Source of the DNA: Parietichytrium sp. I65-24A
Lineage: Eukaryota > Sar > Bigyra > Thraustochytrida > Thraustochytriidae
Direction: 5' to 3'
Assembly (NCBI GenBank): GCA_012862575.1
Contig: BLSF01000049.1
Span: 248,001 to 312,000, forward strand
DNA: 64,000 nt
The notes beneath the pieces are model-generated. The model searched no databases. It was not told the origin of the DNA and was given only the letters and a program-made list of their open reading frames with translations. The position numbers were made by a program, and so were the translations under genes. Of the stretch, positions 10,361-63,803 are shown piece after piece (position 1 is the first letter of the stretch; each line of letters starts with the position of its first letter).

Positions 10361-10597
10361 GTGTGGAGCGCAAGTACCGGCAAACCGGTTGTCGCTGGTA
10401 CCACCAGCGAACAGACCTCGCCGCCTGATTCTAGCATTGTATATGTCATCAATGGCAATCAGCTTTCGGCGGATGGCTTGGTTGGGATATCGGTGGATGG
10501 CCAGATTTTAGAGGAATCCCATAACTCGGATGCAGTGGTGGTGCGGATTGGAAATTCAGTGCACATTTGCTGTGTATGCGAAGGCAGAGCCAAGTAA
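9881..10597 (+). CDS. WD40-repeat protein, 5' end unresolved (fragment or missing exon)
   Basis: The frame encodes four WD40 repeats of exactly 40 residues (VWSAKDGALLHTLEGHTD, then SVAIDGDRIVSGS.DKTV) and a degenerate fifth. A non-WD tail of about 80 residues ends CCVCEGRAK. The 120-bp DNA units start at 9881, 10001, 10121 and 10241 and are nearly identical, pointing to recent expansion. WD40 repeats form beta-propellers of usually seven blades; four to five is too few for a closed propeller. The frame is closed upstream by a TAA at 9857 and has no ATG before the first repeat. So either an exon is missing or this is the truncated remnant of a longer gene. The partner and role cannot be told. 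Confidence 0.6.
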   Translation: MWSAKDGALLHTLEGHTDTVNSVAIDGDGIVSGSWDKTVRVWSAKDGALIHALEGHTDTVYSVAIEGDRIVSGSSDNTVCVWSAKDGAPLRTLEGHTDVVTSVAIDGDRIVSGSKDKTVCVWSAKDGALLHTLEGHTSAVKSVAIDGDRIVSVDRSGSTRVWSASTGKPVVAGTTSEQTSPPDSSIVYVINGNQLSADGLVGISVDGQILEESHNSDAVVVRIGNSVHICCVCEGRAK

Positions 10598-12548: not shown

Positions 12549-13728
12549 TATTGAGTTATTGAGGACTGCGCTGGGCACAACGTGTCCTCGGCGAGGACGC
12601 TCGAAGCTTTAGACAATTGGGTACCGGGACTGGTACTGGTATCCCGTCCTTACTCGCGCACTCTTCATCTCTTCATTCACATGTGATGTCAGCCAGCAAA
12701 CAGATATCGGTGGTACCGGTACTGACAGTACTGACGGTGAGGACCGAGAGAGAATTTGGATGTTGCGGGTGAAATGATGGTGGACTTGGACTTGAACGAG
12801 AAGCGGGAAAGGTGAGCGGATGTGGGGATGCGTTTGGAAAGAATGGAAACATTCGAGCGAAGAGGTTGTGTGAAATGAAGAAGGAATGAATGAATGAGTG
12901 AGTGAAGGAAGGAAGGAAGGAAGGAAGGAGTAAAGGGATATGAAATCAACGAAATTATTAAAAGTTGACTTCTTTTTCAAGAAACTTTATGTGGTCTTGA
13001 AGATCGGAGAAAGTTCCGTGTGCTCGTGGAGCTTTGCGGCCATAGTGAAATGAAGAAGGAATGAATGAATGAATGAATGAATGAAGGAAGGAAGGAAGGA
13101 AGGAAGGAAGGAAGAAAGGGATATGAAATTGAAGTCAACGAAATTATCAAAAGTTGACGACTTCTTTTTCAAGAAACTTCATGTGGTCTTGAAGATCGGA
13201 GAGAGTTCCGTGTGCTCGTGGAGCTTTGCGGCCATAGTTGACGTGCATGGATGCATGGCGAAGTATGGGTTAGTTCTGTTGAACTGAAAGCGGTAAAGTG
13301 GTTGTGAATGCTTTAAAAGATAAAGAGAGAAAGGCGAGGTTTCCTGCGGGACTCATCTGAAGGAGCTTGGGATGGTTGGGTTGGCTCATGACGAGGGCCG
13401 ATCGATGGCAGCGCTCTTTATGTGCATTTGCTTCTCAGGTTTGAGGAAGGGATTGGGACATCTGATGGCGCTATCTTCTCGAGTGAAATGATGACGATGA
13501 TGATGAATGACGGCGGCTCAAAAAGTTGGTCCTTAGTTTTACACGGCAATCATTTATGCTCGAGGAGAAAAAGAAGAGTACCAAAGAGAAGTCGGGTTTG
13601 TCGTATGTATAGAAAGTAGCAATTCACTATCAGTGTACAATGAGAGGCCCCGTGGTACTCGTTCCAAGCAAAAGAAAGCGAAGAAACTGGCGGCCAAAAG
13701 AGTTGTTGTTGGGTGTTTTCGGAGCATT
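12549..13728. other. Intergenic region with tandem duplication and simple repeats
   Basis: Contains GGTACC/GGTACT palindromic motifs (12618-12640 and 12712-12735), a tandem duplication (12871-13237) carrying GAAT and GAAG microsatellites, and a GATGAT run at about 13492-13505. No gene seen. Confidence 0.55.
12871..13237. repeat. Tandem duplication of a ~180-bp unit
   Basis: Unit A is 12871-13045 and unit B is 13046-13237. Both begin TGAAATGAAGAAGGAATGAA and end GCTTTGCGGCCATAG. They share a non-repetitive core (AAAGTTGAC, then CTTGAAGATCGGAGA). The length difference comes mainly from the number of GAAT and GAAG units near the start of each copy. Confidence 0.9.
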
Positions 13729-14595
13729 TTACTCGAAAAATGTTGCTCTGTCGTTGTTCCGGCGCGGAGACGAAGAAATCTCAAGCCATTTCATATAGTT
13801 CACGTAGTTTTCGTGCTCTTTGCGAATTTGAGCCACTTCGCGAGGGAGTGCCAAACCTTCAGGACTGCTTTCGATGTTGCGGGCGCTGTCCTCTCCATCG
13901 ATGATGTAGTGCACGTGGTGATTCTCATTGGTCGCTTCATAAGCAGCAAACTTTTGGCGCTCAGCTTTTCGATTCAGAAGAGATGTTCCCATCGGAGAAG
14001 ATTTGGCGGAGTTTCCGCTCGCAAGTTGTGAGTATTTTGGAGACACGCCTTTCGGCATGATGTCATACGGGAAGGGAAGATCTTCCCCGCCATCTTTTTC
14101 CTCCTCTTCCAGATCCAGCTGTGCGCGTGTTGGAGGGGTCGTCTGTTCTTTGACTGGATGCTCAAAGTGGTACTCGTACACGTATTCCTCACCGTCCTCC
14201 TCGGTGGTGTGGGTTTGCACCGTCAAAATTGGCTTTCCATTTTGCACGATCGCTCGTGCACTGGAATTTGGAGTGACTCCTGCGCTTGGAGCAGGCGCTG
14301 AGACTGTTGATGAAGACGACAGATTCGAGGTTGGGTTGTTGTTCGTCAAGTGCGCAGTATTCAGAGATTTGTAGAATTGTGCCTCTGCTCGAGAGAGGTG
14401 CACAAGCGATTTCAAGAGGCTCTTTTCCAAGTTGAAGAGCTGCTCCTGGTCTAAGATGCCGTTCTGGTTTGCAAAGGTTTGCACCACTTCTTCCGGGTCT
14501 TCGTCCAATGCAAGTGCAATGTCTCTCTGGCATCCATTGCCGAGGTCCACGCTCACGACCACCTTACATGAGATCTTGCTGTCGATCACCTTCAT
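13729..14595 (-). CDS. Hypothetical acidic protein with a small N-terminal folded segment
   Basis: 288 residues with the ATG at 14595 (MKVIDSKISCKVVV). The first 60 residues look folded: a beta-rich stretch, then LALDEDPEEVVQTFANQNGI, then a helix ending in LEKSLLKSL. This resembles short ubiquitin-like or PB1-like segments that begin protist proteins, but I cannot assign a family. The middle is Ser/Pro/Ala-rich and disordered. A C-terminal stretch EVAQIRKEHENYVNYMKWL is helical. EYVYEYHFEHP stands out as an aromatic/acidic patch. There are no membrane segments. The upstream flank (14855-14880) has a TG-rich tract instead of GA. Function unknown. Confidence 0.65.
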   Translation of the reverse strand: MKVIDSKISCKVVVSVDLGNGCQRDIALALDEDPEEVVQTFANQNGILDQEQLFNLEKSLLKSLVHLSRAEAQFYKSLNTAHLTNNNPTSNLSSSSTVSAPAPSAGVTPNSSARAIVQNGKPILTVQTHTTEEDGEEYVYEYHFEHPVKEQTTPPTRAQLDLEEEEKDGGEDLPFPYDIMPKGVSPKYSQLASGNSAKSSPMGTSLLNRKAERQKFAAYEATNENHHVHYIIDGEDSARNIESSPEGLALPREVAQIRKEHENYVNYMKWLEISSSPRRNNDRATFFE

Positions 14596-16400
14596 CTTTC
14601 AAAGCGACCTTGCTTGTTCTTGTTCGCAAACCTGCGCGTGCGCCTTCTCGTTTTGCTGTGCGTTTCGTGCCTAGAATCTCCTTGCAATCGCCTCTTTCCG
14701 CATTGAATCTGACCAATATAGTCAAAAAAAAAGCCTCCCCTCCCCACTGTATGCGTGTGCGTCCAAAATTCAGTCGATCGACCGCGCAATTTCTGAGCTT
14801 CTGCAAACGAACCCTTGTCTTCGCGCGTTCGACGTCGACCAGAGAGAGCTCTTGTGTGTCTGTTTGTGTGTGTATGTGTAGGGAGAAGCACTTGGGAATA
14901 GGATAGGTCACTCAAGAGAGATCTAAGCTATCACGTAGATCCGTTTTCACGTCCAACAACTTGAACTTGACAACTACAAGTCGAAATTGCTGCTGCTACT
15001 CGCGTCGTAAGGATTGCCAGGAAACAACCCTGTTGACTCCAATCCCCGCGAGCCTTTTGTAAGGTTATCGCGATGGAGGTCTGCTCTGCTCTTCTCCGGG
15101 CTCAGGCGAATGAATGAATGAATGAAGGAAGGAAGCCCTTTCGCGATCCAATTCTGTTGGGACTACGACCGCGGCAGAGGGAAACGACTTGGATGTTCGA
15201 GATTTGCTGTACAGTAATTGCTTTCAAGTACATTTTCGAGAGTGTGCGAAAATGTGCGAATCTAGGAATCTAGGAAATAAGAGCGACGCGTCCTAACGAT
15301 TATATTGAGTGAGGTCAGGCAGATCCGTTCTGGCCATGTGAGACTCCTACTCACAGTTGAAACCTTGGAGACGGGCAAGGTAGTACTATTGGTAGTACTC
15401 ATCAGTACTAAAACCACTTGATTAACTTGATTTTCAACTTGATGATCGAAGTAAATCAACCAAAGTTCCGCAGATGAGACTTCGTTTTCATCAGTCTCCT
15501 CTCTATTTCTGTTTCTACCCGAGCTGAGCGATGGACATCGCGGGGCAAGACCGGAAGAGCCGGAGCTGACACTGCAGAAAATGAACTCTGATGTTGTTCT
15601 TGTTCTGTTCAATCGGCGATCTTCTTCGGAGTTCTCGTCTGCAGCATCGTACATCATCACACGAAATTGTACAGCGCCCGCGTCTCGAAAATGCGGCAGT
15701 TTGTGCAGCGATGAGAGGCACAACAACTCTGCGCGCTCGGCTCTCGGTCTTGATCGTTTAACCATCCTCTACTGTACGCATGGCTGATGTGCCTGTTCGC
15801 CGTCTTCCTCGTCCTGTAGAGCCGCACTGGTCGCTTGCGGAGGACTAAACTGGACTCCGCCCTAAGCCTCTCTGTATCGGGTCCACTATCCACAAGCTTT
15901 TTGTGAAATGGATTCGCACCCGCAAAATGGGACTTGCGGCACTGGCGAGTGCGGAACATCGTAAGGACGCATGGGGCCATAGTCGTAGCCTGGCACGAAG
16001 AGCCAGAATGATACATGTTATTGCTTTTCGTTCAACCTGAAGCGAGGATTCTGCAATGTCTTTCGACATCATTCTGTGTGGCACATAAACCCCGTGGTGA
16101 CGAGAAAGGGAAATGACAGAAAATGAAAGAACAATGATTTAGTTCAATGGGGGCCCAGCTAATCCAGACTTTGTAATTGATGGATCTGCAGCCGTGAAAT
16201 TAGGATCTTCATTCATTCCAGCTCCAGGTATCTCAATACAACCTCAGCGTCAGAAAAATTTTCCAATAAGTTTTTTCAGAAAGCAATCCCTCCAACGATT
16301 TTGGAAAATAAATCAAAATTTTCCAAAAGAATTACCGTTTTCTAGTTAGTATAGAGCCTCCACACGCAAAATTCACGTCAACCAAGTGGTTGAATAGCTT
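14596..16400. other. Intergenic region without recognisable gene
   Basis: Holds a TG-rich tract (about 14857-14880, in the 5' flank of the leftward gene), a GAAT/GAAG microsatellite (15109-15135) like those at 12.9 and 13.1 kb, AGTACT repeats (about 15383-15410) and AT-rich DNA (16250-16350). Open frames here are short and overlap on both strands without a family match. Confidence 0.45.
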
Positions 16401-16483
16401 GCGTTGGTAGGTTAGTGGCAAACTCCGACGTTGCCAACATAGGTAGCTTCGTTGGGCCCCGGGTTCGATTCCCGGCCGACGCA
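16401..16483 (+). tRNA. tRNA-Gly(GCC): tRNA-Gly (anticodon GCC) with a 12-nt intron
   Basis: All arms fold. The acceptor GCGTTGG pairs with CCGACGC, with discriminator A at 16483. The D stem is GGTT/AACT. The anticodon stem is CGACG/CGTTG with loop TTGCCA..T. The T arm is CCGGG-TTCGATT-CCCGG, so box B is canonical. The anticodon GCC is at 16433-16435. A 12-nt intron (16437-16448) sits between positions 37 and 38, the standard eukaryotic site; its exact ends could shift by a base. The variable loop has four bases. The CCA end is not encoded, and a T run (16485-16491) follows as Pol III terminator. The mature length is about 71 nt plus CCA. Confidence 0.93.
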
Positions 16484-16484
16484 T

Positions 16485-16491
16485 CTTTTTT
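16485..16491 (+). terminator. RNA polymerase III terminator of tRNA-Gly
   Basis: A run of seven T, interrupted only by one C, directly follows the tRNA 3' end; this is the usual Pol III stop signal. Confidence 0.75.
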
Positions 16492-17391
16492 TCATCTCTT
16501 TTCTTAGAGAGTATCGGCGGTACCTTTGTTTGCCATAGACGCAGTTTATCTAAATTTTACACTCATCACTTTCGCTATTTTTTTTAATCAAAGCATAGCA
16601 CACAAGCGCCAGAGCTTGCGCCGAAAAAAGAGACTAGAGGTTCAGAAAAATGCAAGTTGCAGCACGTGAGTTGCAGATGAGTAGAATTTAGATGACCACA
16701 TCAACGAACGAAACGAACAAAAACGAATATGGACAGAGGACACAACTCGAGTTACATCGACTCTAACTAGCAATTACATGTCATAAACTATATCACTTTA
16801 TCGCTAGAGTTAAACCCAATCAGATTGTTAACGTGTCGAGAAATATCCTACCCGTAAGCCTCGTAGCACTAGTTAGTCTTCAGGTAGAGTAGTATCCCGT
16901 CTAGCCGCGGCGAAGGTACCTTATCCTATATACAGTCCAAACTCTAGCTCACCGAAGCAATACTACGACTACCACCCCCGAGATGAGCGTCATTACGGCC
17001 CATCTACCGCTCGCGCTAGCACCTGCTCCAGCAGGTGATCGGGGGTAACCAACGTGGCGTGTGAAAAGGTCTCGCAAGTGCCTAGGATCACTAACGTTTT
17101 CCCTACTCACACCTCCACAGAGTGGTTACACCTCGTTTCACCACGCTAAAAATCACAGTACGGACGTTCCTAGCGCAGCATAACACCTATTAAGCAAATG
17201 CTACTTGACTACTATGTAGCACTGCTACTAAAGAAATTCGTAGACTTTAGAAGAGAGAGAGAGAGCAAACTTTGGAAAATATATTTTATTCTCCAAAAGA
17301 GATGTGAGAGGAGCCGACCTCTGCGAAGAGCACGCGGTGTACAAGCGACGCGCGCAGTCGGAAGAAGGCTGGAGAGCGAGCGAGCGAGCGA

Positions 17392-17435
<44 letters not shown>

Positions 17436-17827
17436 AACCGGGAACCGAGAACCGCGAGCAGAACAGCATATGATCTGCGCCCGTTCGGGTAGATCGTAAT
17501 TTGGGTTCTCGCAAGAGCTTTTGCCGGCGCGCTCTAAAGTGTCGCTCTTTGCCCCCTCGCTCTGCAGATAGCGGACAGCGGACAGCGGATAGTGAGGAGA
17601 AAGATTGCAGGGCAAGTGTTCCAAGTGATTCGAGAGGTTGGCAGATAGATTTTAAGGCGAGTCAGGTGAAGATTAGGACGAAGCGCCATAGATTCGTGGG
17701 ATTCAGCGGTCTGAACCTAGGTTGATTTGATTTGATTTGATTTGCAAGTCGGATCTCTGCGATTTGGAGAGGGCTTGAGAAAAAGAATTGAGGAGCTCGT
17801 TGATCTTATTGATAAGGAAAAGTCGAG
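16492..17827. other. Intergenic region: CTA/TAG-rich patch and purine repeats before the symporter gene
   Basis: The stretch 16841-17230 is dense in CTA and TAG triplets, many more than either flank. It is followed by GA (17251-17265), a GCGA repeat (17371-17396), a GA tract (17395-17434), GGAACCGAGAACC repeats (17435-17460), GCGGACA repeats (17572-17590) and a TTGAT repeat (17722-17743). No gene found. The region from about 17250 on is probably promoter and 5' UTR of the symporter. Confidence 0.5.
17395..17434 (+). promoter_or_regulatory. GA tract upstream of the SLC5-like gene
   Basis: A near-perfect GA run on the coding strand, preceded by a GCGA repeat and followed by GAACCGGGAACCGAG. 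It lies about 390 bp before the start codon. Confidence 0.35.
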
Positions 17828-19996
17828 ATGGAGCAGGAAGATAGACTGGGGCCGGGAGATGTAGCAGTGCTCGGAGGTTACTTTGTGGCGTTGGCAGTAA
17901 TTCTGTACATGGTGCGACAGCATCAGGTTCACAGCGGCTCGAAATCGGAGTCAGAGTCGTACTTTCTGGCGGAACGCAGCGTAAGCTGGTGGGCTGTTGC
18001 CGCGTCGCTCTTTGCATCCAATATCGGATCAGAGCATTTTGTCGGTCTCGCCGGAGGAGCTGCGAGCTCCGGGGTTTCCATGGGCTTCTTCGAGGTTGGA
18101 GCCATTCCAGTGTAAGTGACAGCGTGCAGAGTTCGCCCGGCTCTTGGTGTGAGCTGACTTGATGTGATTTGTGTGTTTGACGTTTGGGTGATCGCCAGCC
18201 TCATCGCGACAGGTCTCTTTTTCCTCCCAATATACCTGAACGCAAAAGTTCAGACAACGCCAGACTACCTGGAGCGTAGATACAGTCTTTTTTGCCGGAC
18301 GACGATGGTGCTTGTTTCGCTTTCCATTTACGTGTTCTCGAGGATTAGCGCTACCTTGTACGCAGGCGAGCTTATTATTACCGAGCTTATGAACGTCAAC
18401 AAGCTTTTCGCGGTCGTATCCCTTGTCACTGTGACTGCGCTTTACACCGTCCTCGGTGGCCTCGAAGCAGTCATTTACACCGAGGCGCTTCAGACCCTGG
18501 TACTACTTTGCGGCGGAGTGATGATGGTGTACTTTTCTCTCTCCTCTGTGGACGGTGTTAGTGGCCTGTCGCGTCAGCTCGGCAATATGTCGGACGTTCC
18601 TGATGACTTTTTGCACTTTTTCAAGCCCCCTGCTGACCCTGTAGCCCCGTGGACTGGTTTCCTCTTTGGGTTTTACGTCTACGTACCGTGGTACTTTGGA
18701 GTCGATCAAGTCATCGTGCAGAGGGCTCTTGCTGCCAAAGACGTGGCACACGGGCAGCTTGGGTGTGTTGTAGCGGCTTGCTTCAAGTTCATCCCGTAAG
18801 TTTCGGAAAGCCAGCGTCGCTAACTAAGTGAAAGAAAGAAGAAAGGTGGTGCTTGTGACGAAAGGAACCGAACTAACCCCGTTGTTTCTTTTTTCTATTT
18901 TGGCATCGTGAAAAGTTTCTTCATCATGGTCGTGCCCGGTCTATGCGCTCGAGTTCTTGTAACCCAACGTCTTTCGTCGGAGGAGTTGGCAGAATTCGAA
19001 TTTGACAAATCGTTTCCCTGGATGGTCATAAATGTCATTCCAATCAATATGCGTGGGGTCATCGTCGCAGCTATGCTTTCTTCGTTAATGTCTGCACTAG
19101 CCAGTGTCTTCAATTCAGCTGGAACCTTGTTCGCTCTCAACATCTGGAAGGTCTGGTACCCGAATTGTGCAGAAAAGCGACTGGTGTTGGTAGGTCGCGT
19201 CACTGTGGTTGTTCTTGCAGTAGTAGCAATTGCTTGGCTCCCCATCCTTCCACTGATGGGCAAAAGCTTGTTTACCATCATCAACAAACCCTTGGCATAC
19301 CTCGCCCCACCGATTTTTTGCTTGTACATCTGGGGGATGCTTTCGAGACTACCAAACCGCAAGTCCGGAGAATGGACATTGACATTTGGGATTTCATTTG
19401 GCTTTCTCCGCTTCGCTCTTGAGGTCTTCGAGGACGTGATCGACAAAAAATTGTTTGGTGCGTTCACTAGTGTAAACTATATGCACTTTGCAGCGTTCAG
19501 TTTTTGGCTCTGCTCTGTCATCCTCCTTATTCTTTCTCTCAAGTTCCGCAAAGGTGTGCTGGCTTCTGAGGCAACGAGCCTTGATCGCGATCTGCTTTGG
19601 CGCCCCTCACTTTACGATGAGCTCATGGGAAAGAGAGAATGCCCTGACCGGGAGACCGGACAGGCTCACGTCTTGCCAGAGTCCAGGCCACATGCCCCTG
19701 TTCGGACCAACTCCTTCGGAAGCGATGCGAGTGAAAACAACCGGGATGTGCAAATGGTTGACTTGAGCCTTCAGGATGTCTCGTTCGCTGATATTGCGGA
19801 AGCGTCTAACAACGGGCGTGGAGAACGAGCCGCAAGTTCTGACGGTCTTCACGGTGGGAGAGACGGACCGCCGGAACACTCCGAGGGCGACGATTACCAA
19901 AGCCACAATACTACAGCCTTTGGGAAGAGAACCATTCTCAGCCTTTCCGTGTTGGTGCTTAGCCTGTGGCTAACTCAGGTCATTGTGCTTGCATGA
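17828..19996 (+). CDS. SLC5-type sodium/solute symporter (SGLT-like), three exons
   Basis: Exons are 17828-18111, 18199-18795 and 18916-19996. Introns are 87 and 120 bp, both phase 2, with GTAAGT donors. The spliced product is 653 aa. SSS-family marks appear in order: SYFLAERSVSWWAVAASLF (end of TM1 and start of TM2, with the sodium-site region), SNIGSEHFVGLAGGAA, TPDYLERRY, the helices around GELIITELMNVNKLF, KFIPFFIMVVPGLCAR across intron 2, and SSLMSALASVFNSAGTLF (TM8 region; its Ser residues belong to the conserved sodium site). About 14 membrane helices are expected. The closest type is the sodium/glucose cotransporter branch, but the substrate cannot be read off safely. A hydrophilic region (about residues 540-630) precedes the last helix, as in SGLTs. 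The protein probably sits in the plasma membrane. Confidence 0.85.
18112..18198 (+). other. Intron 1 of the SLC5-like gene
   Basis: 87 bp, phase 2, GTAAGT donor and GCCAG acceptor. Joining gives AIPV-LIATGLFF, the expected continuation of a symporter helix. Confidence 0.75.
18796..18915 (+). other. Intron 2 of the SLC5-like gene
   Basis: 120 bp, phase 2, GTAAGT donor and AAAAG acceptor after a T-rich stretch. Joining gives KFIP-FFIMVVPG, matching the family. Confidence 0.8.
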
Positions 19997-52219: not shown

Positions 52220-54193
52220 TCAGTTGCTTGTCGTTGAGGAAAACTCGTTGACAAGAGCTTGCAGGTCATTGTATCGCTCGCCACAGAGGCTCCGGGCTTC
52301 GCCTGCTTTCCGCTGCAGGTCCTCCTCAAGCTCACGGAGAAGACCTCCAACGTTCTCTTGGTAAGCGCAACAAATCTCTAAAGCACGATTGATCTCTTCG
52401 TCGATGGCCGCCAGCTCTTCTTCGTTTGCTTGTTGGACCTTGTCCCACTCCGCCTCCATAGCCCTTGCTTTGATCTGAAGCTGCTGCAATGGAGCGTCAA
52501 GGGAGTCGCCCTCGATTTTGAGATGGTGAATCTCCTCCTCCACGCGCTCCATGTCCGCAGCGCAAACCGAAAGCTCGCGTTCCATGTCTTGCTTGCCGTC
52601 CTGGTACTGTTGCTCGATAGCCTCAATGCGCTGCTCCAATCCTTTGATCTCGGTGAGGAAGACTGATTTCTCTTCCTCGTTTTCGTCCACCTTTACACGA
52701 AGCTCCATAGATTCTGTTTTAATCTGGTGAATTCGGTTGTAGGATACCTCTTGGACCTGCTCAAGCCATGCAATGATACCGTTCACATCGAGCTTTGTGG
52801 ATTCTGAACCGTCCTTTCCTGCGCTGACGAGGAGGTTCGTGTTTTGGTCAAATTTAAGAACAATGTTTGCACTCTGCCGTCCGTTACTGTTATCCCCGTT
52901 CTGAACAAGCCGAAAGGACTTGGCGGTTTGATTGTATCGCTCGACAGTAGCATCTGTGTCTTGCTCGCGCTTGGCTATGGATGCTTCCATCTCCCAAACT
53001 TGGTTGCGCAGGTCATCTCGAGCCTCGAGAATTTTGGCTTTTGATTCCTCCAGAGCAGCTTTCTCTTGGTTCATCCGCTCCGCGTCCGCAGGGCTCAGCT
53101 CTTGCTCGTCGAGAACGCGTTGCACTTGGTCTTTTTGCTTCTGCGCAAGGCCCAGATCCGTCTCCTTCTCTTTGCACTCCATCTCGCGCTCTCGCACCTT
53201 GCTCTGCATGAATTCTTTGTTCTCTTCAAACTGGGCGATGACCTTGTCCCACTTGAGCTTGTCGCTCTGGAAATCTCTTCGGCGCTGTTCGAGGTCGGGT
53301 ATCAGACTTGTTGTCCCGTTTTCCTCCTCTAATTGCCTCATGAGACTCTCCTTGGTGGAAAGCGCGCGCTCGATCTCCTGGGACACCGCTTGTTGATCCT
53401 TCACGATCAGAGACTTGCGCTCCTCGTCCAGTTGCTCTTGATTAGCATCATCCCCTGCAAGGAAGTAAGCGTATGCCTTCTTCAAATACATAAAGAACTG
53501 CTTTTCGCTATCGAGTTCTTCTGCAGTAAGCTCCTCGTAATCCGTGACGCTCGTGCCGGCAAGCTCGTCGTACTCGAGGAGCTCCACCAACCAGACGAGC
53601 GAAGCCAAGAGAGCTGGCCAAGTGTGAGGGCTTCCAACTGCCGCGAGAGCAGTTTTGCTGATGTTGAATGGGTATTTAAGGCCTTTGTACATGAGCGTAA
53701 CTTCGTCAGCGAATTTTTCGCTTGGGCGGCGGTGCGGGTCAAGCAAGTTGAAGAGAAAGTGCACGACGTTCTCGAAGTCCTTGCCAGTCGGCCTGTGCAA
53801 AATCTTTGGCGAAATAGACTGATCATAGTTGTGCTCCACAAGAAAACGAATCAGGTTCTCGATCGAGTTTCGCATGAACGCTTTGTCGCCAATTGGTCGC
53901 GGGTCCGCCTTCAATGGCCCGCCCACTCCGCTCGGCGCCATCGACTTCCTGCGCATTCCAGACGCGGTAGACATCATCGATTGCCTCCTGCTCGCGCTGC
54001 TGACAGGCATCATGGACATCCGCTTGCTCTTCTTCGTTGCGGTCATCATGCCCCCCAACGAGTACCTCGGCACCGTCGTCCCCGGCCCGAGAGACATTCT
54101 GGCCCTGCTGACAGCCTTGTCCGTCGTTGGCGGCGACTTTTGAGCATTCAGCCTTGAGCTCGACACCCTCCCGAACGCAGCGCGAGTCTCCAT
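52220..54193 (-). CDS. NDC80: Kinetochore protein Ndc80 (HEC1)
   Basis: 657 residues from the ATG at 54193 (METRAAFGRVSS). The N-terminal tail (1-96) is basic and Ser-rich with RRQS, RRKS and KRMS sites of Aurora-kinase type. The calponin-homology domain is about 97-208: DPRPIGDKAFMRNSIENLI, SPKILHRPTGKDFENVV, LKYPFNISKTALAAVGSPHT then WPALLASLVWLVELLEY, the Ndc80 hallmark. The remaining 450 residues are coiled coil (LEQRRRDFQSDKLKWDKV, LKIEGDSLDAPLQQLQI), as expected for pairing with Nuf2 and ending at the Spc24/25 junction. A loop-like break near FRLVQNGDNSNGRQSANIV is followed again by heptads. Ndc80 binds microtubules at the outer kinetochore. Intronless. A GA tract on the coding strand lies about 200-280 bp upstream. 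Confidence 0.93.
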   Translation of the reverse strand: METRAAFGRVSSSRLNAQKSPPTTDKAVSRARMSLGPGTTVPRYSLGGMMTATKKSKRMSMMPVSSASRRQSMMSTASGMRRKSMAPSGVGGPLKADPRPIGDKAFMRNSIENLIRFLVEHNYDQSISPKILHRPTGKDFENVVHFLFNLLDPHRRPSEKFADEVTLMYKGLKYPFNISKTALAAVGSPHTWPALLASLVWLVELLEYDELAGTSVTDYEELTAEELDSEKQFFMYLKKAYAYFLAGDDANQEQLDEERKSLIVKDQQAVSQEIERALSTKESLMRQLEEENGTTSLIPDLEQRRRDFQSDKLKWDKVIAQFEENKEFMQSKVREREMECKEKETDLGLAQKQKDQVQRVLDEQELSPADAERMNQEKAALEESKAKILEARDDLRNQVWEMEASIAKREQDTDATVERYNQTAKSFRLVQNGDNSNGRQSANIVLKFDQNTNLLVSAGKDGSESTKLDVNGIIAWLEQVQEVSYNRIHQIKTESMELRVKVDENEEEKSVFLTEIKGLEQRIEAIEQQYQDGKQDMERELSVCAADMERVEEEIHHLKIEGDSLDAPLQQLQIKARAMEAEWDKVQQANEEELAAIDEEINRALEICCAYQENVGGLLRELEEDLQRKAGEARSLCGERYNDLQALVNEFSSTTSN

Positions 54194-54887: not shown

Positions 54888-57800
54888 CTATCTTGGAAGA
54901 TCATGGTGCATATGTGGCGGAGCAAGGCCGCTGCCATTCATTTCGATGAAACTGTGCACATCGGCATGAATGTCCACTGCGTTTACGGTCTCGGTGGACT
55001 TTTCGGAGAGCTCATTCACTTTGTCCGCCAAGCGTTTGTGCCAAAAGAAGAGACCAGAATACAAGGAACTCAGGAATGAGTACTGGTGGCGCTCAAGACC
55101 ATCGTAAATCCGCATCACACGCGCGGCCTCCTTCTTATAGAAACGCTGGTAGTCGGTGTACTTCTCCTCTGCGTCCTGTTTACTCGCGAGAGCAGCTTCG
55201 TACCTGCGTTTCGCCGAGCTGATTTTCCTCTTTTTCCTATCCGCTGCGTTTTCCATTGTGAAAAAGTTCTTGTAATAGTCCTTTTGCTTACACTCTTTGA
55301 GATGGCGTTTTGCTTCTTCCACCTGCTCGTTGGCTTTGGCAAGCGCTGACTGAACCACCTGGCACTCCTTTTTTACCTTGGCTCGGATGCTTTGAATTTC
55401 ATTCAAGCGGCCGTGGCAGGTTACGACCATATCTTTCAGTGCTTTCATGAGCATGACGTCTGCGGATTCCAGGCACTGGCGCATTTCGCCGAGATGCTCA
55501 GACCATGTGCCCCTGACCGTTTCCATGGCAGCAAACAATGTGTTGACTTCACCACGCGCAGACTCCTTGGCTATGCCTTCGTCCAGGATCGCACGCAATG
55601 CTGCTCTTGACTCATCGTCCATCTCACCAATGTCCAGCTCGTGCGCATCCGCGTCACCTCCCAGATTCTCTTGGTCTTCTAGCACAGGGCTCATCTCCAC
55701 GAAGGCGGACGAACCATCCATGGCTGGAGACTCCGTCGAAGTCTCCAGAATTGTGGCGTTTTGAGACTGTGAAGGCTCGGAAGCAGAGGACATACCACCG
55801 CTTGATTGAGTCCGATCCAAGGTTTTGGAGCTTTCGTACTGGCTGTTGAACTCGCCATCCAAGTCACGAGGTGTGCGAGGCGTTGAAGCACCGTTTACAT
55901 CCTTTTCCCCGGTAGAGAGGCCTGCCAAATTTAGCGAGTTTGAGGACAGAGCCGAAGCGTAGCGGCCGCTTTCACCTTCTAAGCGAGGATCGTAAAGCCG
56001 CTTCTTCCTCTTTGCAGAACTATCGTCGGCAACCTCGGGGTCCTCCGTGTGCCGGCTGCTATTCTCGTCGCTCGCCGTGCTCTCTGCGTGAAGCGACGCA
56101 GAACTCTTTGATTTCGAAAATACCTTGAACCTGCCCTTGAGGCGGTCTCCAATCCCTTTAAAGCGATCCCTTCGTCTTCTTCGTGGCGCCGTGTTCAGCG
56201 TGGAGGCAATGTAATGTTTGTCCTTCTCACTGAGGCACAAAAGCGGATGCTCCCTCACCAAGTCAATAGACTGCAGAAAGAGCGAACGAAGTGTGGCCAT
56301 GCGATCCGGAAGGACCTCCAAGAGACTCTCGCAAATTGCCTTCGAGTGGAGAATGATGTTTTGGACATGGTAGTACCGCGACGGCCGACGCTCGCTCCAA
56401 AAGTGAGGATCCAAAGTTCCCTGCTCCCCATTCGAGTCAGTCAGCAGCATGCGCGCGAGGGACACGAAGGCGCTGTTGGAAGCCATGGCGGACTTGAGAT
56501 TGTTCGCCGCCTGCTGACTAGCAACATTAAACCCTATGCCTCGTTCCGACAGAAGCTTTCGCAGATCATTCCCAAGAACAAGATCCTCGACGGGCTTTGC
56601 GGCGTCTTTGTCCAGTTTTTCTGAATCGAAAAAGCCAGTTGCCTCCATCGCAGCCAAGTCGAGAACAGCGTCAGAATCCCCTTCGAAGAAAATAGGTTCC
56701 TCCGTTGTCTCCAGTGATTTTGGCGGCGGAGTCAAGAACGGAGAAAGGGCAAGGTGTTCGGCAATTTTCTTTTGAATCCCGTCAGCAAACTCTTGCAGAT
56801 ACTCGTGACAAGACGTGAGGGATTCCGTGTAGGCGGCCTGCATTTGCTCCAAAAGCTGCGAAAAGCAGGTGTTGTTCACCTCTCGCCTGGTATGATACAT
56901 GTCTTGCGCTTCTGTCAGTTGAAACGCAGACTTTTGCTTCAAGTCGCGTAGCTCAAATAGCCTCTTCTCCTGCACTTCGTCCATGGGCGACTTTTTCAAG
57001 TCTTTCTCGAAGTCAGCAGTTTCTTTGGCATACCTTTCGGCGAACTCCTTCGCCTTGCGCAGTTTCTCCTTTGCACTTTCAAGCTCGGCGTCGTATTTTC
57101 TCTTCTTCTTGACATGCACCATCATCTTGTATTTGAGGGTTCGTTTCGCAGTCCGCACGTTGGTGGATAGATTTCGGCACGTGGAGGCCATGTCCGTAAA
57201 CAGTCGGATGTCTTGCGTGAGACCACCAAACGTTTTTACAAAGAGATCGTCGAAAGGGTTGAACTCGGCGCGCTTTCGGAGGATGTCGAGCGGAATAATG
57301 TCTAGGTGGCTTGCGACTTTTTCCAACTCCTTCCACGTCCTTTTCTCAATTGCGCTGTACCCGGCTGTAAAGTGCTGCATCGTCCGCAGCCGAAAGGTGA
57401 GCTGGTTAAACCGCGCTAGGATTGTCCCCAAATCCCCCCACATGTGCCTCGCAAACGTGAGTCGACTTTCGTCTTGATCAGAGGCCACAGAGTGCACCGA
57501 GGAGTGTCGCCCGCGCTTGATAAGAGACCCTGCGTGAGTCCGGCGGACGGACTGTCCTTCGGCGTCAAAAAGGTCAAGCATCGCGTTTGAAGTTTCCGGT
57601 CCATCGCGTAGCACGTCCCCGGTGTCCGTTCCTCCTGATTGATCTCCGTGCGCTCTCCGAGTATCCAACGACACCTGGTCTACGATGGACGAGTTGCGAG
57701 CAAATGGGTCAAGCGCGCTTTGCAAATATTTGCGCGTTCGCTTGTCGAGCTCGTCGTGCTTTCGCATATCTTCATCTGCACTCACCTTGTTGATGATCGC

Positions 57801-60800
57801 CACCCTTTCGTCGATAGCTTCCAGCATATCCGTGCAAGAGGCTCGCTCATGCTCCACCAACGATTGCAGCGACGATAATGTATTTTGCACTCTTTCCCGC
57901 TCCATGCGCTCAAACAAAACCAATGCCTCGCGCATCATGCTTCGGTAGGCTTCCGTAACTTCAGTTAAGCTTTCGTAAGCAAGGTCTTTCGCCTCCTGCA
58001 GGGCCCTCTGGTCCGTGGCGAGCTGGGCAACTTTGATCGCCAAACGCTCTTGTCTTTTTTGCGCACGAAGCAACTTGTCGGCATCAGTTGATTTAAGTAC
58101 CGACTTCATGGTTCCCCTGAAACCCTGGGCATGGCTGAGTGTCATTTGACTGTCGGAGGATGGTTTACGTTCGACTTCTGATTGGAAAGTCGCACCAGGG
58201 GACGTCACGCTCGGAGGCGTCGGGGAAGACATTGGTGTTGCTACTCCGGACCCGGTTCCGGTGCCGACAGCATCCCCGCTCATCTTCATTGTAATTTCAC
58301 GAGACTCCTCCTGGGAACGCACTAGGTCTTTGCTGAGAGATTCCTTCTCATCCTCTTTTTTCGCCAGAGCGCTCTCCGCCCGGCGGAAGTTGTTGAGCGC
58401 ATTCTGAAGCCGGCGCTTCCCTTCAGCTCGCTCGGCCTCCCGTTCGTCCACAAAAGTTTGTAGGTCGACTTGCAAAGCTGCTGAGAGATTGACAAAGTAT
58501 TGATTAAGCTTTGCTCCCTCGTTCGTTACAATACTTGCGACCACTACAACACAGTCCCTCACGTTCGACAAGGCAGCCTGCAATGTGTTTTGTTTTACAG
58601 AAGCCCTATTGGATGGTTTGAAACCAAACTCGGTTTGCGTTGTTGCCTCCGTGAGGCGACTCGTGAGGTCCCGCGCCGCTACAACACGCGCAAATCCGAA
58701 GTCGTTTCCGGAGCCGTATAACTTGCCAATGGACTTGAACCACGCGATCCAATTTTCGTACACCCTCTCAAGCTCACCATCGGAACAGTTCTCGCTGGGC
58801 AGCTTTGGCAATCGCTCGGCGTACGGGTACTTTGCAGCCCGCACTTCAGATGACTCGCTGCTATTAGAGCTAACATGCTGTACTAGTCTGCGAGAGCTCT
58901 CTGCAGAGTGAGTTGGAGACCCAAGGAGCGTCGGCTTCGAGCTCTGAGGGGAAGAAAGGCTTTCACTTGAGCGCGCCTCTCCGTTTGGCGACGCAAGTTT
59001 GGGAGCTCTGGAAGGTGTTGTTGGAGACCGTAACCCATCTATCGCCGCTCGAGTAGCAAAGAGGAGGGGTTCGTTGAGGGCAAGTTCGAGTTTGGCAATC
59101 GTGTCGAGCCGTTTCCGAGAGAGATATCGCAAGAGGATATCTAAAAACTTTCGAAGCAGGTTCTGGACCTTGATTATTCTCCGCTTCTCATGCTTATGAA
59201 AAGTCTCCATGATTTCGGTGTTGGCATTGGTGAAATTACTTAGTTCTCGCTCCAGGGCGGCAACTTCCTGGGCAAACTCAAGCCGGCAAGATTCGAGGTT
59301 CCGGCTTGTGGCCACTTTTCTGTCTGCTATCCTTGCAAGGTCATACTTTGTGACGTGCATCATTGGTTTGTCCCTTTTCGCGTCGCCGTTAGAAGCTTGA
59401 TTCTTCAAGTTGTCCCCTTTGCCGCTACGTAGCGCATTATAGCGAGAATCGCTCAAAACGAGGTCTGCGAGATTTTCCACAAACATGCCGTGTGATACCC
59501 CAATAGCATCGGAGCTTCGGCGAACCTTGCCGCTTACCCCTGCAAACGCCGCATGACTTGGACGCGACAGAAAAGAGGATCGGCGAGAACTGCGGCGAAC
59601 CGGAGCGGCAAACTTGGCGCTCTGACTCGCAGAATTTTGAGCGGAAAATTCTGCCATGCGCGATTGCACTTCTGAAAAGGAGGCGAAAGAACTCCCCGTG
59701 ACACGAGAGCTGACAGACTCTTCTCGCAAGGATGACTGCGAAGAGCCAAAGAGCTCATTTTGACTGGAGAACGCTCTACGGGGAGAGAAACGGTCGTCGC
59801 TGCGCAGGAGGTTGTCGTCTGAAGAGGTAGGCGGCCCATCGTCCAAAGTCAGACCCTCCAGGTCGGGATCAAAGTGCTCAACAAAGTCGTGGGCGTCATC
59901 GTCGTCGTCCTTGTACCACTCTCTATCGGTCGACGTGTTGGAGTCGAGAGAGAGAATGGAGCGGTCCCCATCTGACCTCCCCGTGTGGGGCCCACCACCC
60001 AGCGACCGCTCCGAGCTGGGACTCGTTAAAAGGGCACCAAGGCGGGACGACGGGCTCCTCGGCGAGAAGGATTCCAAAGAATTCCGAATTCGCTCGCCCC
60101 CTGCCGTGTTGGGAGACAATGCACTGCCTGGCCGGGCTGCGCTGGCTGGCGAAAACATGTCAAAGACCCCATCGTTGGCCTTACCCGAGTGTATTGAAAC
60201 ATTCATAAAACGACGCGGAGTTTGCTGCGCCATGGCCTTCTCAATGTTTTGAGCCTTTATGCGCTCTTGAAGACGATTAAATTGAGCCTCCACGGCTTCC
60301 GATTGCTTCGTGGCCTCCTCTTTTCGTTTTTTGGCACGCTCCATGGAAGCCTTTCGGATGATAATATTATTCATATGCAGCTTTTCTGAGTCAATCAGGC
60401 CGTGATACTGCGACTTTAGGGCCCTGTAAATCTCGCGCAACGGAGAGCAGACCTCCAACGAAATTTCGTTGGCCATCTCGCCGATAAGATCTGCGAGTGC
60501 GTTCGTTTCGAAAGCAATGTTGTCCCACACATGCTCCCTAAGAAAAGGGTTGAGCTCGGACGACGTCTCAAAATACACCACCTTTTTGACGTTCGCGTCC
60601 GGACGGCGGCAAATTCGATGCAGAGCGGCCATGTAATTGAGCAAACCCGAGTGGATATTTTCAAGCATTTCGGTGAGTGTTTTGACGTCCTCAAGACCGG
60701 ACAAGGCGTGGCGTTTGACGAACTGGAATCGAGACTTGAATAGGCGCTGTTTGGTGTAAAAGTTGAGGTAGACCGACTCCAACACATGGGAAACTTTGTT

Positions 60801-63800
60801 GGCATCACGAAGCAAATGTGACCCTCGCCGCACACGGATCAGGCTAGGGACGACCTTTGGTTTTGGCAAGCCGCGCCACGACAACTTTAACGGGAAATCA
60901 GCAGAGCTTACTCTGAAAGGCCCTGCGCCACCATACTCCCCTTCCGCATTCGGAATTGGGACGTCATAATCCTGGCGATCGGCTTGTGACGTATCCGCAA
61001 GAAATGAGGCTTTGATGGTGTGCTTGCTCTCCATGTAATCCCCATTCATTGCGTCCTCGTCCGCGTTACCATTCTCCACGGGACTAGATACGCCAGCAGG
61101 AGTGTCTGCCCGATGCGTTGCTAACGCATCAATCCATGCATCGAAGAGCATAATTTCGAAATTCCTTTCCGCGGCGAAAATCCTGTCCTCAAAGAACATT
61201 TGCATCATTTGTGTGGACACGAACTGGTCCAAAAAGTTGTGGATTTTCTCCCCATCGACGTGGCTTTTTATAAAGCTCTGCCTGTCTATCAGCTCGTCCA
61301 GCCCCGACTCGAAGCCCCCCATAAAGGGTCTGTAGTCACCAATTAAGTTGACAAAGAACTCCAGGAACACTTTGCGCACTGCATTGTTGAAATCCTCCAC
61401 GGGTGCGTCCACAACACATTCGAGTCTATTTTGCGGGAGAGAGATGTCTTCCTCTTGGAAATCTGTCACAGGCCCGTCGTCAGGGGTCCTTCGCATGCCA
61501 GAATTTGCGGCGTATTCGACACGGTATTCAACACGGTTCCGGCGGCGACGGCCGCCTTGTCTGTCCCGAGTGCTAAAGCCAGTTGAGGTGCGCTTCTCGA
61601 TAGGATGTGTGGCGTTGTTCGCATACACGAGTTTTTTAAGTCTATCTCCGAGTGAGTAAGCGCAAGGAGGGAAGTCAAAATCTGCCTCACTTGCTGGCAG
61701 CTCCACTTTATCATTGTCAAGATCCACAAACACAACGGAACTCCGAAAATCAGAATGCTGGGTCAATTGCGAGCGGTGAATCCCTACCATAATCGCAAGC
61801 GGTGCATTAAGGAGCTCCATCATTTCGGAATAATTTGGGAGGATGGGAATGAATGGATTCTGCCAAGTAAGCGGAAAGAGAAGTGCCTGGATTCCAGTGG
61901 AAACGTTTGACAAGAGATCCAGGCGATCTGAAACAAAGACAACTTTGTTTTCCAAGATGGTAGCCGTGAAGAGCGTGAGAAGGTTGTTTGCGCACAAGCT
62001 CTCGAATATTGGGCGTAGCGGGACGTTCAGGAGGGGAAGTCGATTGAGCGGCGGTCTAGAGCAGCAAAAGTAGTACGGTTGGTTGCTGTGCAGCTTGAAT
62101 CGCACGCGGTACTTGCCCGGCGGAGGTTCGGGGACCTCGCGGACTAGATGCATGATACATCGCTCCAAAGGAACCGGTAGCGCTTCTCGCTTGCGAACAA
62201 TATTAAGTACTTCCCGCAAAATGGCTTCGAAGAGTGTGTACATAGGCCATAGCGAGGTGAGAATGATACACTTTGGCTCATAGAGCTCCACGTTCTCAAT
62301 GGTTTGCTGAGCAAACTCGTCAAAGTACCCAGAGAGAGCCTGGATCGCCGCAAGACGGACTTCACGACAGCTTTGAAGGGGGTCATCATCGTCGTCGAAT
62401 ATAGAGGAGTTTAGCGCATCAGAGACCTCGCTTCGTTCCTGCCCTTCGCAGTCGTTCTCGTTTTCTTTGACGGATTTGACGGAACCGTCAGAATCGTAAC
62501 CAGCCTCGTCGACGTTGCTTGCTGAGCCAGCACCAATGCGCTTCGCCATATAATTTGTTGCCTCAAGAAAAGGCTCAGATTCTGACCCCATAGTCATCAT
62601 TGTTTTGAAGCTTTGCATTTGATCATGCGTCACGGAAATGAGGCTGGGCACCGAATCATCGTCGACGTCGCCATCATCGCCGTGCCATTTCACTTTACCA
62701 TCCGCATTTTCCACCTCGACGCTCGTACCGTTCCCGTTTGGAGCATCAACGCCATCGTCCACGTCTTCGTCAACAATTGTGTCTTGTCCTTCTGACTGAA
62801 TCTGCTTGCGTAATTTAGAAGAAGAGTCGCCAGCGTTCTCGGAGGCTATTTTGTTCCGCATGTCGTGTCTCCGCTTGACAATGCGAGAGAGTGTATTTAC
62901 ATAATCGTCACCCATCAAATTCGCAAAGGCGCCCTCGTGCGCCGTGAGAAACTCGTACAGGAGCTCGTTCAGCAGCCCGTCGACCCCACTAGCGCAACTC
63001 TCTGGTTTGTTCTGCTGATTGCTGCCGCCAGTCGCGAGGCTCCCAATGGCCAGTTTCTCCTGCTCGCCTAGCAGTGAATCGAGTTGTTGGCAGAACTGAA
63101 GCCAGACGACAGCATCGTTTCCATCTTCGCCCTGAGCTAAAAATGCCTTGAATCTGTCTGACGTCCACTCGCTTCTCTTGCGATCCTTGGTACCCAAAAG
63201 CAAGTGCTCCAAGGCTGGCTCCACAAACTTGCCAGCCTTGAGCGAGAGAGGATCGTAGAATGTGAGACAAGTAGAATGTACTTTGGAGTGGTCCGCGCGC
63301 GTGAGTGTGAACGAGTGGCACGTCATTTGCTTTGCTCTTGCCTTGCGGCTAACTATGTTGACTCCGATCGGAAAGCAGAACTGCACTATTTCATCCCCGA
63401 TTGAAAGGTCTACGTAGTCCTGCGCAGGGTATCTGTCATGAACTTTCACTTTAAGCGCCGAGCAGAACTGCGGGTCCAGGAGGTCGAGCATGCTTATCGG
63501 GCCGGCGGTTTGTTGCGAGCTTGCCCAATCTACACCAGTCACTAAAAAGTAGCTTGCGATTGTGTTTGGCCGCTTGTTCGGCATCGCCGCAACGCTAGCT
63601 GCTCCAGTCCCAGTCCCATTACTGCTCCCACTATTCTGTCTGCGGTGAGGTCCTCGTCCAGTCTTTCCGGAGGAGCCTCGGCCGGGGGACCCTGCTTCCG
63701 AGGCCCGTTCATCTTCATCGTACTGCGAGGCAGATGGTGGATGTTTGCCCTCTCCATCTCTTCCGCCAGTGCCGCCATTTTGAGCGGCATTAGCCGAAGT

Positions 63801-63803
63801 CAT
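54888..63803 (-). CDS. Giant DENN-domain protein with several BAR/F-BAR-like helical segments (2,971 aa)
   Basis: One intronless frame from the ATG at 63803 (MTSANAAQNGG) to the TAG at 54888. Residues 80-190 look like uDENN (VDLSIGDEIVQFCFPIG, LTFYDPLS). Residues 500-700 are the cDENN core (CIILTSLWPMYTLFEAIL, LLTLFTATILENKVVFVSD, ALLFPLTWQNPFIPILP). Residues 790-880 are dDENN-like (AVRKVFLEFFVNLIGDY, FLDQFVSTQMMQMFFEDRIF). DENN modules act as exchange factors for Rab GTPases. The remaining 2,000 residues hold at least four long helical blocks, about 1000-1195, 1685-2030, 2115-2350 and 2750-2940, whose size, basic patches (HVKKKRKYDAELESAKEK) and spacing recall BAR/F-BAR dimers. Ser-rich disordered linkers separate them. 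The DENN call is firm; the BAR-like call is by pattern only. A Rab-GEF that also shapes or senses membrane would fit. Confidence 0.8.
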   Translation of the reverse strand: MTSANAAQNGGTGGRDGEGKHPPSASQYDEDERASEAGSPGRGSSGKTGRGPHRRQNSGSSNGTGTGAASVAAMPNKRPNTIASYFLVTGVDWASSQQTAGPISMLDLLDPQFCSALKVKVHDRYPAQDYVDLSIGDEIVQFCFPIGVNIVSRKARAKQMTCHSFTLTRADHSKVHSTCLTFYDPLSLKAGKFVEPALEHLLLGTKDRKRSEWTSDRFKAFLAQGEDGNDAVVWLQFCQQLDSLLGEQEKLAIGSLATGGSNQQNKPESCASGVDGLLNELLYEFLTAHEGAFANLMGDDYVNTLSRIVKRRHDMRNKIASENAGDSSSKLRKQIQSEGQDTIVDEDVDDGVDAPNGNGTSVEVENADGKVKWHGDDGDVDDDSVPSLISVTHDQMQSFKTMMTMGSESEPFLEATNYMAKRIGAGSASNVDEAGYDSDGSVKSVKENENDCEGQERSEVSDALNSSIFDDDDDPLQSCREVRLAAIQALSGYFDEFAQQTIENVELYEPKCIILTSLWPMYTLFEAILREVLNIVRKREALPVPLERCIMHLVREVPEPPPGKYRVRFKLHSNQPYYFCCSRPPLNRLPLLNVPLRPIFESLCANNLLTLFTATILENKVVFVSDRLDLLSNVSTGIQALLFPLTWQNPFIPILPNYSEMMELLNAPLAIMVGIHRSQLTQHSDFRSSVVFVDLDNDKVELPASEADFDFPPCAYSLGDRLKKLVYANNATHPIEKRTSTGFSTRDRQGGRRRRNRVEYRVEYAANSGMRRTPDDGPVTDFQEEDISLPQNRLECVVDAPVEDFNNAVRKVFLEFFVNLIGDYRPFMGGFESGLDELIDRQSFIKSHVDGEKIHNFLDQFVSTQMMQMFFEDRIFAAERNFEIMLFDAWIDALATHRADTPAGVSSPVENGNADEDAMNGDYMESKHTIKASFLADTSQADRQDYDVPIPNAEGEYGGAGPFRVSSADFPLKLSWRGLPKPKVVPSLIRVRRGSHLLRDANKVSHVLESVYLNFYTKQRLFKSRFQFVKRHALSGLEDVKTLTEMLENIHSGLLNYMAALHRICRRPDANVKKVVYFETSSELNPFLREHVWDNIAFETNALADLIGEMANEISLEVCSPLREIYRALKSQYHGLIDSEKLHMNNIIIRKASMERAKKRKEEATKQSEAVEAQFNRLQERIKAQNIEKAMAQQTPRRFMNVSIHSGKANDGVFDMFSPASAARPGSALSPNTAGGERIRNSLESFSPRSPSSRLGALLTSPSSERSLGGGPHTGRSDGDRSILSLDSNTSTDREWYKDDDDDAHDFVEHFDPDLEGLTLDDGPPTSSDDNLLRSDDRFSPRRAFSSQNELFGSSQSSLREESVSSRVTGSSFASFSEVQSRMAEFSAQNSASQSAKFAAPVRRSSRRSSFLSRPSHAAFAGVSGKVRRSSDAIGVSHGMFVENLADLVLSDSRYNALRSGKGDNLKNQASNGDAKRDKPMMHVTKYDLARIADRKVATSRNLESCRLEFAQEVAALERELSNFTNANTEIMETFHKHEKRRIIKVQNLLRKFLDILLRYLSRKRLDTIAKLELALNEPLLFATRAAIDGLRSPTTPSRAPKLASPNGEARSSESLSSPQSSKPTLLGSPTHSAESSRRLVQHVSSNSSESSEVRAAKYPYAERLPKLPSENCSDGELERVYENWIAWFKSIGKLYGSGNDFGFARVVAARDLTSRLTEATTQTEFGFKPSNRASVKQNTLQAALSNVRDCVVVVASIVTNEGAKLNQYFVNLSAALQVDLQTFVDEREAERAEGKRRLQNALNNFRRAESALAKKEDEKESLSKDLVRSQEESREITMKMSGDAVGTGTGSGVATPMSSPTPPSVTSPGATFQSEVERKPSSDSQMTLSHAQGFRGTMKSVLKSTDADKLLRAQKRQERLAIKVAQLATDQRALQEAKDLAYESLTEVTEAYRSMMREALVLFERMERERVQNTLSSLQSLVEHERASCTDMLEAIDERVAIINKVSADEDMRKHDELDKRTRKYLQSALDPFARNSSIVDQVSLDTRRAHGDQSGGTDTGDVLRDGPETSNAMLDLFDAEGQSVRRTHAGSLIKRGRHSSVHSVASDQDESRLTFARHMWGDLGTILARFNQLTFRLRTMQHFTAGYSAIEKRTWKELEKVASHLDIIPLDILRKRAEFNPFDDLFVKTFGGLTQDIRLFTDMASTCRNLSTNVRTAKRTLKYKMMVHVKKKRKYDAELESAKEKLRKAKEFAERYAKETADFEKDLKKSPMDEVQEKRLFELRDLKQKSAFQLTEAQDMYHTRREVNNTCFSQLLEQMQAAYTESLTSCHEYLQEFADGIQKKIAEHLALSPFLTPPPKSLETTEEPIFFEGDSDAVLDLAAMEATGFFDSEKLDKDAAKPVEDLVLGNDLRKLLSERGIGFNVASQQAANNLKSAMASNSAFVSLARMLLTDSNGEQGTLDPHFWSERRPSRYYHVQNIILHSKAICESLLEVLPDRMATLRSLFLQSIDLVREHPLLCLSEKDKHYIASTLNTAPRRRRRDRFKGIGDRLKGRFKVFSKSKSSASLHAESTASDENSSRHTEDPEVADDSSAKRKKRLYDPRLEGESGRYASALSSNSLNLAGLSTGEKDVNGASTPRTPRDLDGEFNSQYESSKTLDRTQSSGGMSSASEPSQSQNATILETSTESPAMDGSSAFVEMSPVLEDQENLGGDADAHELDIGEMDDESRAALRAILDEGIAKESARGEVNTLFAAMETVRGTWSEHLGEMRQCLESADVMLMKALKDMVVTCHGRLNEIQSIRAKVKKECQVVQSALAKANEQVEEAKRHLKECKQKDYYKNFFTMENAADRKKRKISSAKRRYEAALASKQDAEEKYTDYQRFYKKEAARVMRIYDGLERHQYSFLSSLYSGLFFWHKRLADKVNELSEKSTETVNAVDIHADVHSFIEMNGSGLAPPHMHHDLPR

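Follow-up and report, generated by a model that had tools for sequence, protein, structure and literature searches.

In animals, the activation of Rab proteins and the shaping of membranes usually reside in separate proteins, and how the two come to be co-located is a standing question of membrane trafficking. The closest precedent for their union in one chain is the yeast protein Vrl1, which is described as carrying a VPS9 exchange factor together with a predicted PX-BAR and as forming the VINE coat with Vin1 (PMC9507130); according to the same source, its exchange activity in the cell requires membrane recruitment by this SNX-BAR partner. Here we describe a gene of the thraustochytrid Parietichytrium sp. 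I65-24A (assembly GCA_012862575.1), located on the reverse strand of a 64,000-nucleotide stretch (positions 248,001 to 312,000 of contig BLSF01000049.1, the whole of which we call the window). Its product appears to share with Vrl1 (as the latter is portrayed in the source cited) a Rab exchange domain and a BAR-superfamily domain in one chain, and to differ from it in the domains used: Vrl1 combines VPS9 (Rab5 family) with a PX-BAR that pairs with Vin1, whereas here a DENN module is followed by an F-BAR-like tail, maybe in several copies.

We reason, at slightly better than an even chance, that the product of this gene is a Rab exchange factor in one chain, whose DENN head is followed, towards the C terminus, by an array of F-BAR-derived helical hairpins. 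It occupies 54888-63803 as a single uninterrupted frame of 2,971 residues, which opens with an ATG, preceded by an in-frame TGA two codons away, and closes with TAG. In all 20 windows of up to 150 codons, those in disordered stretches among them, codon preference (trained on one neighbouring gene, NDC80) ranked this frame above the two others of the same strand; the frame is bounded and coding over its full length, in agreement with the uninterrupted 8.9 kb reported in a preliminary description of this DNA, made from the letters alone. That description also took the absence of introns as notable, a point we abandon, since all 11 other DENN matches found in the genome likewise sit in long open frames (729-2,967 residues; the search was made frame by frame, its counts are lower bounds, and introns beyond those frames are possible).

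The first 900 or so residues do contain the DENN module that had been proposed for them, with its three lobes in the expected order (uDENN, DENN, dDENN). The uDENN and DENN lobes exceed their Pfam cut-offs, and dDENN falls slightly under its own (22.8 bits in the whole protein and 26.4 bits in the N-terminal piece, against 26.8); the uDENN and DENN lobes are separated by 241 strongly acidic residues with a net charge of -30. The sole PDB relatives of the central domain at E value ≤0.01 are DENND1A (3e-14) and DENND1B (5.9e-14), the connecdenns, neither of which is known to have a BAR-type domain in the same chain. Both are presented as Rab35 exchange factors linked to clathrin-coated pits (PMC8912961). 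Since these are the nearest solved relatives of the DENN domain, the Rab substrate is perhaps Rab35-like.

The helical tail comprises five blocks, A to E, and a further module, M, between D and E (Table 1). As Pfam is weak here (an F-BAR-SH3 protein of this genome, encoded by L020, stays under the FCH cut-off with 17.3 of 27.8 bits), we built custom F-BAR profiles from solved F-BARs and the two F-BAR genes of the genome, L020 and L031. The first (1-1917) carries a C-terminal SH3 and matches syndapin, PSTPIP1, Imp2 and FCHO2 in the PDB; the second (1303-2526) is not among the Pfam FCH matches. The six-sequence profile A5 was calibrated on 177,635 PDB sequences, from which it returned 34 hits at E value ≤10. 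The first 29 are all F-BARs (five being chains used as seeds or almost identical to these), the weakest being FES with 22.9 bits, and the best non-F-BAR sequence (a myosin-7 rod) reaches 17.5 bits. SH3BP5 and srGAP are both absent from the 34, and the absence of the latter means that A5 misses some F-BARs. On this scale block E scores 38.2 bits, above the solved F-BARs of Rgd1 (36.2), Syp1 (24.1) and FES; the whole protein scores 32.2, A+B 23.8 and B alone 20.8 bits. The other values are 11.0 for the second half of C, 6.6 for A, 3.2 for the whole of C, 2.6 for its first half, 2.6 for D and -2.6 bits for M. At this level E matches the third/fourth-helix hairpin of the F-BAR profile together with its C-terminal segment, and A+B match the hairpin without that segment.

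An earlier, five-sequence profile gave 38.3 bits for E, 22.6 for B, 9.5 for D, 8.3 for A and 4.4 for C. From the 200 shuffles made per block (175-198 scored for A-E), 2 of 189 reached the score of C and none that of any of the four other blocks; reversed blocks stayed at or below 4.2 bits (E reversed, -6.0), and the NDC80 coiled coil fell to -13.2 bits. Among 166 frames from the window and other loci, the best frame outside this protein and the F-BAR genes was, under a six-sequence profile, a classical BAR protein with 7.1 bits. A sub-profile restricted to the fourth helix recovered B with 19.9 bits (0 of 243 shuffles as high) and E with 12.1 (0 of 274), and was weak in C (4.2 bits, 7 of 295) and D (2.4 bits, 8 of 277). 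A classical BAR profile (from three BAR proteins of this genome) gave -0.8 bits for E, 0.6 for A+B and 5.6 for the best block, C1, and Pfam BAR matched neither the whole protein nor any block.

Genome-wide searches, and PDB searches free of these seeds, point the same way for block E. Against the 42.5-Mb genome it retrieved itself, then the F-BAR-SH3 gene L020 (E value 0.022) and then a match at 1.48; conversely, the F-BAR of L020 retrieved itself, its paralogue L031 (1.2e-26), block E (0.27) and a match at 0.92. In the PDB, E found PSTPIP1 first (0.61), with Smc as the other match (6.3), and a D+E profile found CIP4 (0.3) as its only hit; each of these PDB values would, taken singly, be weak. 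The third and fourth helices of E and its C-terminal segment align with PSTPIP1 and with the F-BAR profile, in which E resembles the F-BARs of PSTPIP1, CIP4, Imp2 and others. The present protein differs from them in that the FCH start is undetected, in the long disordered insert carried by the tip loop of A+B, and possibly in having several copies per chain. Block E as an F-BAR-like hairpin with a C-terminal segment is, at the level of sequence, well supported, and A+B as a second F-BAR-like unit moderately so; C and D may represent additional F-BAR copies that have diverged more strongly. The proposal that DENN and F-BAR-like segments share one chain is supported, clearly by profile at E and moderately at A+B.

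Block A matches F-BAR profile columns 56-164, weakly when taken alone (6.6-8.3 bits), and block B columns 154-226 (20.8-22.6 bits). When the five-sequence profile was run over the full protein, columns 58-164 fell on residues 1092-1193 with 5.0 bits, and columns 154-226 on residues 1485-1557 with 15.2 bits; with a six-sequence profile, A took columns 126-172 and B columns 162-234, again in the right order. About 290 residues, largely disordered, separate the two matches. A low-confidence model places helices within 998-1190 of block A, and shows helices 1119-1190 and 1487-1591 with the chain between them mostly unstructured. Because A and B take up neighbouring halves of the profile in order, we read them as probably one F-BAR-like domain, whose loop between the third and fourth helices carries an insert of some 290 residues. 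The break falls between what we take to be the third and fourth long helices, a place that in F-BAR dimers is the wing tip, and the disordered core of the insert (1196-1435) would lie in the tip loop predicted for A+B. The preliminary description overlooked block B, which seems to complete A; the long helical blocks that it did list were found at their places.

The same description had called the blocks basic, which is only partly right, the net charge being +8 for A, +7 for B, -1 and 0 for the two halves of C, +6 for D and +2 for E. In the low-confidence models, C has a 47-residue loop (1839-1885) between helices 1738-1838 and 1886-2008 (the second broken twice), a loop that is modelled at the place matching the A+B break; the long helices of D, three in all, span 40, 87 and 77 residues; and the loops between the paired helices of D and E measure 4 and 7 residues. 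Module M (2466-2520) resembles the end of block C (1965-2017) with 12.8 bits, a value given without shuffle control, and fits none of the readings offered here. As a candidate for the missing FCH start of E, M was rejected (-2.6 bits with the F-BAR profile, -1.8 with the FCH sub-profile).

Structure models were made with AlphaFold without alignments, in two pieces rather than block by block; single sequences were used because MAFFT alignments of the blocks were poor. When the model of the C-terminal piece (blocks D and E) was searched with Foldseek, the best 50 of 625 matches comprised 39 F-BARs, 8 SH3BP5, 2 MIC60 and 1 ACAP1 BAR.

Several observations weigh against an F-BAR origin of the tail. 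The single-sequence models are poor, with a mean predicted local distance difference test score (pLDDT) of 44.9 and a predicted template modelling score (pTM) of 0.31 for residues 2100-2971, and of 42.6 and 0.24 for 985-2045. The best Foldseek E value for the low-confidence D-E model is 6.4e-3, with none below 0.001; for the A-C model, also of low confidence, no F-BAR appears among the best 50 of 196 matches (best E value 1.1), and the 50 best VIA-align matches of the D-E model, helical hairpins of a generic kind, include SH3BP5 but no F-BAR. Pfam F-BAR/FCH matches neither the whole protein nor any block, and the Pfam families that match E best, Tropomyosin (1.6e-4, 21.6 bits against a cut-off of 38.6) and Laminin_I (4.5e-4), are generic coiled coils that stay below their cut-offs. 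The FCH region (the part modelled by Pfam PF00611) was found in no block, by Pfam or by a sub-profile of the first two helices, which gave noise throughout (at most 0.6 bits, in D, a score reached by 13 of 192 shuffles); the third-helix sub-profile alone was also at noise level (best A, 1.2 bits, 13 of 245 shuffles; E, -1.5). We stress that the FCH test calls for caution, as the F-BAR-SH3 protein of this very genome stays under the cut-off too. In the PDB, D gave two unrelated matches, C none and A-B five unrelated ones, with no F-BAR among them; in general, single-block Pfam and PDB searches returned weak coiled-coil or unrelated families only, except for the match of E to PSTPIP1. Finally, A alone, C (11.0-14.1 bits in its second half) and D all lie below the best non-F-BAR PDB score, so that an F-BAR hairpin is found in neither C nor D at that level, and the score of D is unstable (15.7, 2.6, then -0.5 bits with an iterated profile). 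Given the undetected FCH start and the low-confidence models, we call the tail F-BAR-like rather than F-BAR. The count of at least four BAR-like domains in the preliminary description is not borne out, the scores of C and D being noise or unstable and the top 50 Foldseek matches of the A-C model being without F-BAR.

The alternative that survives best is a narrower form of our own explanation, compatible with it, in which F-BAR ancestry is confined to E (perhaps also A+B), unrelated coiled coils make up C, D and M, and the dimer forms between chains as in ordinary F-BAR proteins; we rate it a little short of an even chance. It accords with the PDB-calibrated level, which only E and A+B pass, and with the A-C model, whose best Foldseek matches lack F-BARs. 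Against it, the second half of C beats all shuffles with three whole-domain profiles (0 of 485, 0 of 493 and 0 of 495 as high), although not with the fourth-helix sub-profile; the two halves of C weakly match the corresponding parts of E (7.7 and 7.3 bits, without shuffle control), and the helices of D fit in length and order.

Less favoured, and in our judgement unlikely, is that the tail forms a long coiled-coil scaffold or tether (of golgin- or SH3BP5-type hairpins), its likeness to F-BARs reflecting a shared amphipathic-helix pattern; the DENN module would then be placed by the tether, and curvature would be irrelevant. SH3BP5 offers a caution here: this coiled-coil Rab11 exchange factor was once predicted to be F-BAR-like and the nearest relatives of its structure are, by the account cited, other coiled coils (PMC6138693). 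It resembles the tail in its long helical hairpins and trafficking role and recurs in the Foldseek (8 of the top 50) and VIA-align matches; the under-cut-off Tropomyosin and Laminin_I matches of E, the absent FCH signal and the unsupported C and D also suit a tether. However, A5 gives no non-F-BAR PDB sequence above 17.5 bits, as against 38.2 for E and 23.8 for A+B, and does not list SH3BP5 at E value ≤10; the match of E extends into the C-terminal segment in both the PSTPIP1 and the F-BAR profile alignments; and Pfam SH3BP5 (PF05276) has no match at E value ≤10 in the whole protein, its tail included, or in any block. A search of the genome for this family likewise gave no match, as did the control genomes.

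A more ambitious version of the F-BAR explanation, which we regard as rather unlikely, holds that a complete DENN module is followed by four domains of F-BAR descent (A+B, C, D and E, the last perhaps including M), which pair within the chain as two dimers, with the inserts looped at the wing tips, making a one-chain coat with its own Rab activator. That the DENN module is instead a non-catalytic platform receiving an active Rab, the protein being a Rab effector coat and not an exchange factor, is quite improbable: the under-cut-off dDENN and the acidic stretch between uDENN and DENN would suit it, but the match to the central DENN domain is strong, and the solved proteins closest to it, DENND1A/B, are described as active exchange factors (PMC8912961).

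Table 1. Features of the DENN-F-BAR-like gene, in positions of the window; residue numbers refer to the encoded protein.
Feature	Position	Strand	Basis or remark
Whole frame, DENN module and helical tail	54888..63803	-	2,971 residues; 20/20 coding windows; TGA before ATG
uDENN (longin-type) lobe, residues 120-182	63258..63446	-	Pfam PF03456, 50.3 bits, cut-off 22.3
Central DENN domain, residues 509-698	61710..62279	-	Pfam PF02141, 142.9 bits, cut-off 23.4
dDENN lobe, residues 840-888, borderline	61140..61286	-	Pfam PF03455, cut-off 26.8
Helical block A, residues 985-1195	60219..60851	-	Proposed first half (third long helix) of a split F-BAR-like domain
Disordered insert core, residues 1196-1435	59499..60218	-	Composition; no predicted helix, pLDDT <50
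Helical block B, residues 1475-1591	59031..59381	-	Fourth long helix; proposed to complete the split domain as its second half
Helical block C, residues 1675-2025	57729..58781	-	Possible divergent F-BAR-like domain; helix layout, low-confidence model
Helical block D, residues 2106-2355	56739..57488	-	Possible divergent F-BAR-like domain
Helical module M, residues 2400-2535	56199..56606	-	F-BAR profile -2.6 bits
Helical block E, residues 2726-2962	54918..55628	-	F-BAR-like helices 3 and 4 with the C-terminal segment, 38.2 bits

The downstream same-strand neighbour in the window (52220-54193) is NDC80, which encodes a kinetochore protein (Pfam Ndc80_HEC, 4.7e-39). Within the genome, none of the 11 other DENN frames found carries an F-BAR signal (best 5.2 bits, the 2,967-residue frame having been read as two overlapping pieces), and a protein search with the whole protein gave no tail paralogue, all 10 non-self matches falling in the DENN module. 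No relative turned up in viral contigs (no match to any of six peptide patterns), and no orthologue from another protist matched in the collections searched. The domain combinations of DENN proteins are varied in this genome, as other DENN frames carry RGS and PDZ (L038, 3572-8410), C2 (L040, 2220-6518) or ankyrin repeats (L042, 3444-6758). A further one (L044, 2773-5700, contig C1 of this genome, G000) encodes, beyond its DENN module, an ENTH (25.9 bits against a cut-off of 24), a membrane-binding, curvature-linked domain tied to DENN; this DENN-ENTH protein hints that DENN was joined to membrane-binding domains more than once in the lineage. A second giant DENN gene (L034, 2349-9899, and L035, 2-4249; contig C87) has an open frame of 2,967 residues, with a partial DENN match only and no other Pfam domain at E value 0.001 in either piece. 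Contig C66 (about 8562-19556) holds a single open frame of 5,583 residues, which matches a polyunsaturated fatty-acid synthase model five times, four times in one part (which we take to be the ketosynthase) and once in another, always under cut-off; in the genome as a whole, the PfaA-type fatty-acid synthase, taken as a thraustochytrid marker, gave 8 partial matches, none over cut-off.

Among the papers listed from the open-licence literature on DENN with F-BAR or BAR, tandem F-BARs, SNX-BAR and odd domain combinations, none describes a DENN-F-BAR protein. In a labyrinthulomycete, the ectoplasmic network would be an attractive place for such a protein to act. A proteomic study of this network includes a candidate (A42866) with weak BAR likeness and no tie to the DENN gene (PMC12221091).

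The domain combination is real and unusual, and the joining of a Rab exchange factor to a BAR-superfamily domain is already precedented; what we propose for its function is conditional. If the tail is an array of F-BAR-derived hairpins, the F-BAR-like elements would attach to curved membrane as pairs, formed among themselves or between two chains, and there the DENN head would load guanosine triphosphate (GTP) onto its Rab; with Rab loading taking place at curved membrane, membrane shape and Rab identity would be set together. If true, the pairing of DENN with an F-BAR-like tail would be a second solution beside Vrl1, reached with different domains, and would predict curvature-dependent exchange within one molecule.

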